Shown here piece by piece: positions 48,378 through 48,918 of a stretch of 64,000 nt of DNA; the first letter of the stretch is position 1; each line of letters starts with the position of its first letter. The position numbers and the translations under genes are program-made. Location: contig CASFOP010000003.1 in the NCBI GenBank assembly GCA_949296525.1, positions 62,001-126,000 of the forward strand, written 5' to 3'. This DNA comes from an uncultured bacterium (GTDB lineage Bacteria > Elusimicrobiota > Elusimicrobia > Elusimicrobiales > Elusimicrobiaceae). Below the pieces are notes generated by a model that worked only from the letters and a program-made list of their open reading frames with translations, was not told the origin of the DNA and ran no database searches.

Positions 48378-48450
48378 GCCGAGATAGCTCAACTGGCAGA
48401 GCAACGGTTTTGTAAACCGTAGGTTGTGGGTTCGACTCCCATTCTCGGCT
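48378..48450 (+). tRNA. tRNA-Thr (anticodon TGT)
   Basis: 73-nt tRNA. Acceptor GCCGAGA pairs with TCTCGGC, discriminator T, no encoded CCA. Anticodon stem ACGGT/ACCGT encloses TTTGTAA, giving TGT (reads ACA). T-arm ends with GGTTCGACTCCC, which is copied twice downstream. Confidence 0.94.
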
Positions 48451-48850
48451 GTAATTTGTCCGCGGGAGCGGACACGAGAAAGCGGGCAAACTGCTTTGCC
48501 CGCGTTGGGAGGCGAAGGCCGCAGCGATGTTTTTGTTTGAGGCCAAAGGCCGAAAGGCAAAAACCGCGAGGCCCGGCCCGCGCGAGGCCCGGCCCGGAGG
48601 AAAATCCCGTCAGGAATTTTACCGCAGGGGACTCCCATTCTCGGCTGTAATTTATTCGCGCAAGCGGGCACGAGAAAGCGGGCAAACTGCTTTGGTCGCG
48701 TTGGGAGGAGAAGGCCGCAGCGATGTTTTTGTTTGAGGCCAAAGGCCGAAAGGCAAAAACCGCGAGGCCCGGCCCGAAGGAAAATCCCGTCAGGGATTTT
48801 ACCGCCGGGGGACTCCCATTCTCGGTTGTAATTTATTCGTAAAAGCGTAC
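48434..48850 (+). repeat. Tandem repeats copying the tRNA-Thr 3' end
   Basis: Three direct units begin with GACTCCCATTCTCGG: at 48434 (inside tRNA-Thr), 48630 and 48811. Unit lengths are 196, 181 and a partial third. Units share a GCGGGCAAA-CTGC-TTTGCCCGC hairpin (intact in unit 1, decayed in unit 2), then GAGGCCAAAGGCC and GAGGCCCGGCCC, the latter duplicated in unit 1. The 467 bp between the tRNA and the TerC gene hold no gene. The 265-residue minus-strand frame across it is a by-product of the repeat. Confidence 0.85.
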
Positions 48851-48918
48851 AAAACAAAGACGGGCACTGCTTTATCTCTTTTCGGCAGCCGTTTTCTATC
48901 TTTATTACCGGAGTGTCT

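Follow-up and report, generated by a model that had tools for sequence, protein, structure and literature searches.

Short structured elements tied to the 3' ends of tRNA genes in Elusimicrobiota, and their probable mobility

Why does a tandem array restart, unit after unit, with the 3' end of the tRNA gene that it follows? The question is raised by a tRNA-Thr(TGT) gene in the window, the 64,000-nucleotide stretch of DNA that we analysed as a whole. ARAGORN placed this gene at 48378-48450 on the + strand, where the Rfam tRNA model gave 71.5 bits, and the preliminary description had noticed that its 3' end comes back at 48630 and 48811, at spacings of 196 and 181 bp. Exact matches confirmed this reading: the 24-mer GACTCCCATTCTCGGCTGTAATTT occurs in the 64-kb window at 48434 and 48630 only, and its first 15 nt additionally at 48811 and at no other site on either strand. 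An exact repeat of 24 nt at such a spacing lies far outside what chance would give.

The first copy of the direct repeat, A1 (48434-48450, +), consists of the last 17 nt of the tRNA, from the T-loop to the 3' end, and is followed by a trailer, F1 (48451-48474, +), whose hairpin TGTCCGC-GGGA-GCGGACA lacks a U tract, so that read-through from the tRNA into the units is possible at this locus. Then come G' (CGAGAA, 48475-48480, +), complementary to the acceptor-stem 3' strand TTCTCG of the host according to the sequence and a permutation test over loci; the covarying hairpin H1 (GCGGGCAAA-CTGC-TTTGCCCGC, 48482-48503, +), which bears out the hairpins reported earlier for the interior; and G (GGGAGGCGAA, 48507-48516, +), which complements the host T-loop/T-stem 3' strand TTCGACTCCC with one mismatch. 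The core of unit 1 (48517-48598, +) contains a GCGATG..GTTTTTG..CAAAAAC..CGCGAG stem, and a further covarying hairpin, H4 (GGAAAATCCC-GTCA-GGAATTTTACC), leads together with the right end GCAGGG (48599-48629, +) up to unit 2 (48630-48810, +). Within unit 2, A2 occupies 48630-48646, G' 48671-48676, H1 48678-48699 and G 48700-48713 (all +), followed by the core, H4 (from 48779) and the right end; this unit gave a covariance-model match of 140.7 bits (G000:C3:110678-110808) and is 95% identical to unit 1 across a 147-nt alignment. The 15-bp difference between the two spacings is due to a 16-bp internal tandem duplication, CGCGAGGCCCGGCCCG, which sits in the core of unit 1 only (48565-48596). The third copy of the tRNA 3' end, A3 (GACTCCCATTCTCGGTT, 48811-48827, +), opens an incomplete unit whose trailer and H1 remnant (..ACTGCTTT, 48828-48873, +), recognised by comparison with G010 and G034, stop near 48873; in those two genomes the right copy likewise stops at CTGCTTT. 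Minimum-energy folds predicted in the window, as RNA and as DNA alike, pair A with G'/G.

The array has a TerC-like ORF shortly downstream (from 48913) and, as its other neighbour, a minus-strand metalloprotease-like ORF, both named from their translations alone. None of the ORFs around the array is integrase-like, as had already been observed; the Rfam scan of the window returned the tRNA alone at meaningful scores, and the comparison with phage DNA gave no match.

The preliminary description had proposed looking for the unit in its own genome, and further copies indeed lie behind tRNA-Thr(CGT), tRNA-Arg(CCG) and, in degraded form, tRNA-Arg(TCG). The tRNA-Arg(CCG) array closes contig C8 and opens contig C6, with the break inside a unit (end of L003, start of L005, G000), so unit numbers there are unreliable and the earlier worry about unit counts was well founded. 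A covariance model, R1, built from 31 units, found copies in 37 of 37 genomes of the genus (1-24 per genome) and in 104 of the 295 genomes sampled from the phylum; further genera of the same order carry copies as well. In these relatives, nearly every core match follows a tRNA of the same strand, some tens of bases from its 3' end. The 95 first units that we measured represent 23 isoacceptors in 31 genomes, and copies are almost always the first feature 3' of the tRNA, on its strand; of 60 additional loci, those that depart from this pattern are later units of an array (second or third), loci at a contig start and tRNA 3' remnants. Only the tRNA 3' end is left at L144, L152, L172 and L177, and some remnant loci look like they sit behind an inserted island. 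At L047 (G007, C9) the tRNA-Ser of two tandem units is present as a 3' end only, and a reverse transcriptase (RT) gene lies at about 57460, ~3 kb upstream of the units.

What emerges from our results is a genuine family of short structured elements, widespread and tied to tRNA 3' ends; we found no account of it in Elusimicrobiota within open-licence papers. The earlier suggestion of a mobile palindromic element aimed at this tRNA had the kind of element right and the restriction to a single tRNA wrong, many tRNAs being used. The alternative suggestion of a non-coding repeat holds in that the element is dispersed and structured, and its sites are tRNA 3' ends generally. Many copies away from tRNAs had been named as the mark of a dispersed repeat: copies are numerous, yet essentially every one sits at a tRNA.

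The element is ~140 bp long and its parts follow one another, in the direction of the tRNA, as A, F, G', H1, G, core, H4, right end (e.g., ACCGGAAGG) and A again, where A is the last 17-18 nt of the host tRNA, from the T-loop, and F is the trailer, usually with the tRNA's terminator. The direct repeat begins at T-loop position 56/57 and stops 0 to about 41 bp beyond the tRNA; the cleanest loci have a locus-specific repeat that is exact across 40-60 bp and reaches 20-41 bp past the tRNA. Since the unit is bracketed by a repeat of the tRNA's own last ~17 nt, the tRNA stays intact. The two arms are reverse complements of parts of the host tRNA, G of its T-loop/T-stem 3' strand and G' of its acceptor 3' strand, and complementarity to the own host exceeded that to other hosts in 41 of 41 units for G and in 38 of 41 for G'. 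The summed arm-host complementarity was reached by none of 2000 permutations, and the cross-controls (G with the acceptor, G' with the T-arm) were null. Reading the loci had led us to suspect that the arm is conserved better than the right-hand copy, but the counts gave no support: retention did not differ (7.53 of 10 for the G arm vs 7.55 for the right-hand copy), and continuing selection on the arms therefore lacks support. The predicted fold of the core is conserved and covarying, with compensatory change in 25 of 36 pairs. The sequence of H1 changes fast and is still perfectly paired in all units around a constant ACTGC(T/G) loop, the stem having 10 bp instead of 9 at most tRNA-Ser hosts; a derivation of H1 from the host tRNA was tested and none was found.

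Variants of this plan were also seen. At L051 and L057 (tRNA-Thr(TGT) in G011 and G004) a ~270-bp extension, in which we recognised no gene, lies in the loop after G and is bounded by inverted repeats TGGGTTGGCAAGG..CCTTGCCAACCCCA. A second core type, with the motif CAGCCATATCC or GACCCTTATGC .. GGGGCCGCGAG .. GACTTGTGGCC, occupies the same G', H1, G, A frame at L053, L069, L070, L072, L345 and L347, and the tRNA-Val units L120 and L131 (G043 and G047) are bigger, about 300 bp, with added GC-rich hairpins in the core. The tRNA-Val(CAC) host beside unit L078 (G011, C34) apparently has neither variable region nor T-arm (..CCTCACACGC meeting GACTGCCCA) and appears to be a damaged tRNA gene or an assembly error.

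Do the copies move? The nearest core lay at a different tRNA of the same genome 14 times vs 2.9 expected, and at the same tRNA of another genome 19 times vs 4.5 expected; these excesses point to inheritance in place together with spread within genomes. In G011, the cores behind tRNA-Asp and tRNA-Ser(GGA) are 96% alike, and their H1, G' and trailer differ. The tRNA-Thr(TGT)-terC locus, for which a comparison between strains had been advised, was compared across species and carries the unit in some of them and a single tRNA end with a single trailer in others. Behind tRNA-Met, G028, G031, G032 and G018 carry a unit, G019 has a truncated one, and the site is empty in G015, G011 and G033. Near-identical cores at different tRNAs and filled and empty orthologous sites thus make it quite probable, as far as sequence comparison goes, that copies move; no near-identical strain pair differing by one insertion was found among the compared genomes, so mobility is inferred at species distance. 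At tRNA-Met, G018 shares the left part (trailer and H1) with G028 and G031 but has a different core, which indicates that units are modular. The length of the target duplication ranges between about 15 and 60 bp, and many of these duplications are degraded, which is unusual for a transposase. Spread showed no bias toward similar T-arms (Spearman -0.075, permutation p 0.79), which gives no support to arm similarity as what steers target choice; it is therefore likelier that a copy takes its arms from the new host than that the arms select the host.

Next comes the level at which the element acts. G-U pairs are rare in its stems, with 5 of 760 in H4 and 3 of 853 in H1 (the H1 count is biased because the hairpin was located by requiring Watson-Crick pairs, the H4 count less so), compared with 37 of 665 in the tRNA acceptor stems and 35 of 612 in the trailer terminators of the same loci; in H4, G-U is not commoner than A-C or other mismatches. 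A terminator lies between the tRNA and the element in 78 of 95 units. Because of the rare G-U pairs and the intervening terminator we lean to an action at the DNA level, a claim that we would place slightly below even. Alternatively, the units may be an RtT-like family of structured ncRNA genes expressed from read-through tRNA transcripts, which we consider unlikely. In such an RNA, G'-H1-G-core-A would form a tRNA-like domain in which the core replaces the T-loop on the acceptor stem/T-stem, RNase P and tRNA 3' processing would trim the transcript, and selection for the fold would keep the arms matched to the tRNA. The covarying core agrees with this, and G' and G are both of the strands that a tRNA-like acceptor/T-stem stack needs. 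An RNA function is also possible because RtT, with an identical layout, has been detected as RNA in gammaproteobacteria, on Northern blots of A. pleuropneumoniae, where it adjoins tRNA genes (PMC4986893); the structure of RtT covaries and includes a tandem GA motif (PMC7657543, PMC8250186). However, apart from the terminators and the scarcity of G-U pairs, many right-hand copies are too decayed to close the fold, and a patchy presence at orthologous tRNAs with spread between tRNAs within genomes is ill-suited to a conserved gene.

tRNA 3' ends are classic att sites, and the preliminary description had suggested that the array could be a ladder left by repeated insertion or loss of elements at such a site, which we took as integrase-mediated gain and loss of larger islands. 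At L047, L144, L152 and L172 the 5' part of the tRNA is displaced by unrelated DNA, as would fit ordinary island insertion. Against such a ladder, a single covarying core is common to all units, no integrase lies near the window array (this genome has only four integrase-domain matches), and the direct repeats differ from tRNA to tRNA and at the cleanest loci run on past the tRNA; since an att core borne by the element cannot extend into a locus-specific trailer, we rejected this explanation, which is extremely improbable. Purely local tandem duplication of the tRNA flank, with gene conversion producing the likeness between loci, would account for arrays of 1-3 or more units and for the modular exchange at tRNA-Met, but it agrees poorly with single-copy insertions with a bracketing repeat at L004, L014 and L058 and with orthologous sites that are empty in some species, and we hold it to be very improbable. 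Another candidate is a guide-bearing element, whose RNA or ssDNA would pair G'+G with the tRNA T-arm/acceptor strand and direct a nuclease or recombinase there. Its arms are host-specific and complementary over about 17 nt to a site within the duplicated target, but recently spread cores were unbiased toward similar T-arms, an associated effector gene was not found, and both RT and the Y1 transposase family are missing from several high-copy genomes, which leaves the guide very improbable. No transposase, integrase or RT linked to the element was found. Matches to RVT_1 (RT) occurred in 7 of 37 genomes and were absent from G011, G015, G018 and G019; Y1 was absent from the same four, from G000, G004, G005 and G007, and from others. 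An RT-mobilised, SINE-like retroelement was discarded, the RT gene being missing from those four carriers, as was the analogy with a retroviral primer-binding site, because high-copy genomes lack RT and the repeat can take in the trailer.

The E. coli tyrT/tyrV repeats (RtT, RF00391; ncRNA RttR) are 178-bp tandem units directly behind the tRNA, each of which, like the Elusimicrobiota units, closes with the host tRNA 3' end. Their internal GGGGAAGGAT complements the host ATCCTTCCCC, GAGAA follows the arm, and a hairpin with a GUCA-like loop, then ACC/CCCGAAGG, lies near the right end. The Elusimicrobiota units show these parts in matching order. The closing stem of RtT is made of the arm and the tRNA 3' end, and a 5' arm likewise closes the structure in the Elusimicrobiota elements, although their arm is split by the H1 hairpin whereas that of RtT is unsplit. 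Among the RtT loci retrieved, those with a clear host all sit at tRNA-Tyr, in contrast to the 23 isoacceptors of Elusimicrobiota, but the tyrT unit itself had supplied the pattern used. The RtT model gave no match in G000 at E<=10 nor in ten element loci at E<=0.5, and R1 gave none in eight enterobacterial RtT loci; because the covariance models do not cross-hit, we do not claim membership of RtT and describe the elements as RtT-like in their layout. RtT has been treated as a structured RNA of tRNA operons (PMC4986893, PMC7657543, PMC8250186) and as similar to BIMEs (PMC2965389); the open-licence papers that we found describe it as an RNA and not as a tRNA-targeting element.

Other systems resemble the element in part. 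REP/BIME and MITE-like repeats are likewise short, non-coding, structured, dispersed and probably mobilised in trans, but the Elusimicrobiota element, unlike REP/BIME, occurs at tRNA 3' ends only, with target-specific repeats and arms, and Y1, the family of REP-type transposases, is missing from many of its carrier genomes. It shares with tRNA-targeting integrative elements and islands the tRNA 3' target, the restored tRNA and direct repeats at both ends; unlike them, it is ~140 bp, without integrase or large cargo between the repeats, and its direct repeat is locus-specific and sometimes goes past the tRNA instead of being one carried att core. Integron cassettes (attC) offer an analogy only, as tandem arrays of small units that each contain an imperfect folded site; for the present units no integron integrase or cassette genes were identified, and the arms match the host tRNA.

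Our preferred reading, which on balance we hold to be the probable one, is that of an RtT-like, structured mobile element, short (~140 bp) and non-autonomous, that lives directly behind tRNA genes. It would insert at the T-loop of the tRNA gene with duplication of the target sequence, and arrays would then lengthen or shorten through recombination between A repeats. The host tRNA may be the template from which the matching arms are copied, or by which they are corrected, either during insertion or later. The likelier route would be a DNA-level one, by template switching or quasi-palindrome correction, since G-U pairs are few, a terminator intervenes and spread is unbiased by T-arm similarity. 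A recombinase or replication step, supplied in trans, would probably act on a folded single strand paired with the tRNA 3' end; that a host or resident tyrosine recombinase does the mobilising seems rather unlikely. We propose only tentatively, and with some doubt, that these elements represent a new class of mobile DNA without an enzyme of its own, inserting at the T-loop, duplicating the tRNA 3' end and so sparing the gene, and having its arms re-templated by each host, with E. coli tyrT (RtT) as a second branch, long known but unrecognised.

To our knowledge, the E. coli tyrT repeats have stayed unexplained for decades. With a family that spans the phylum, sits behind two dozen kinds of tRNA gene and has arms matched to each host, the tyrT curiosity becomes a comparative system, in which it can be asked how a copy gains the complement of a new tRNA, which enzyme moves the unit and whether it affects tRNA expression. 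For these organisms, the arrays also mean disrupted genome assemblies at tRNA genes, and, if mobile, the unit would be a very small tRNA-targeting element.
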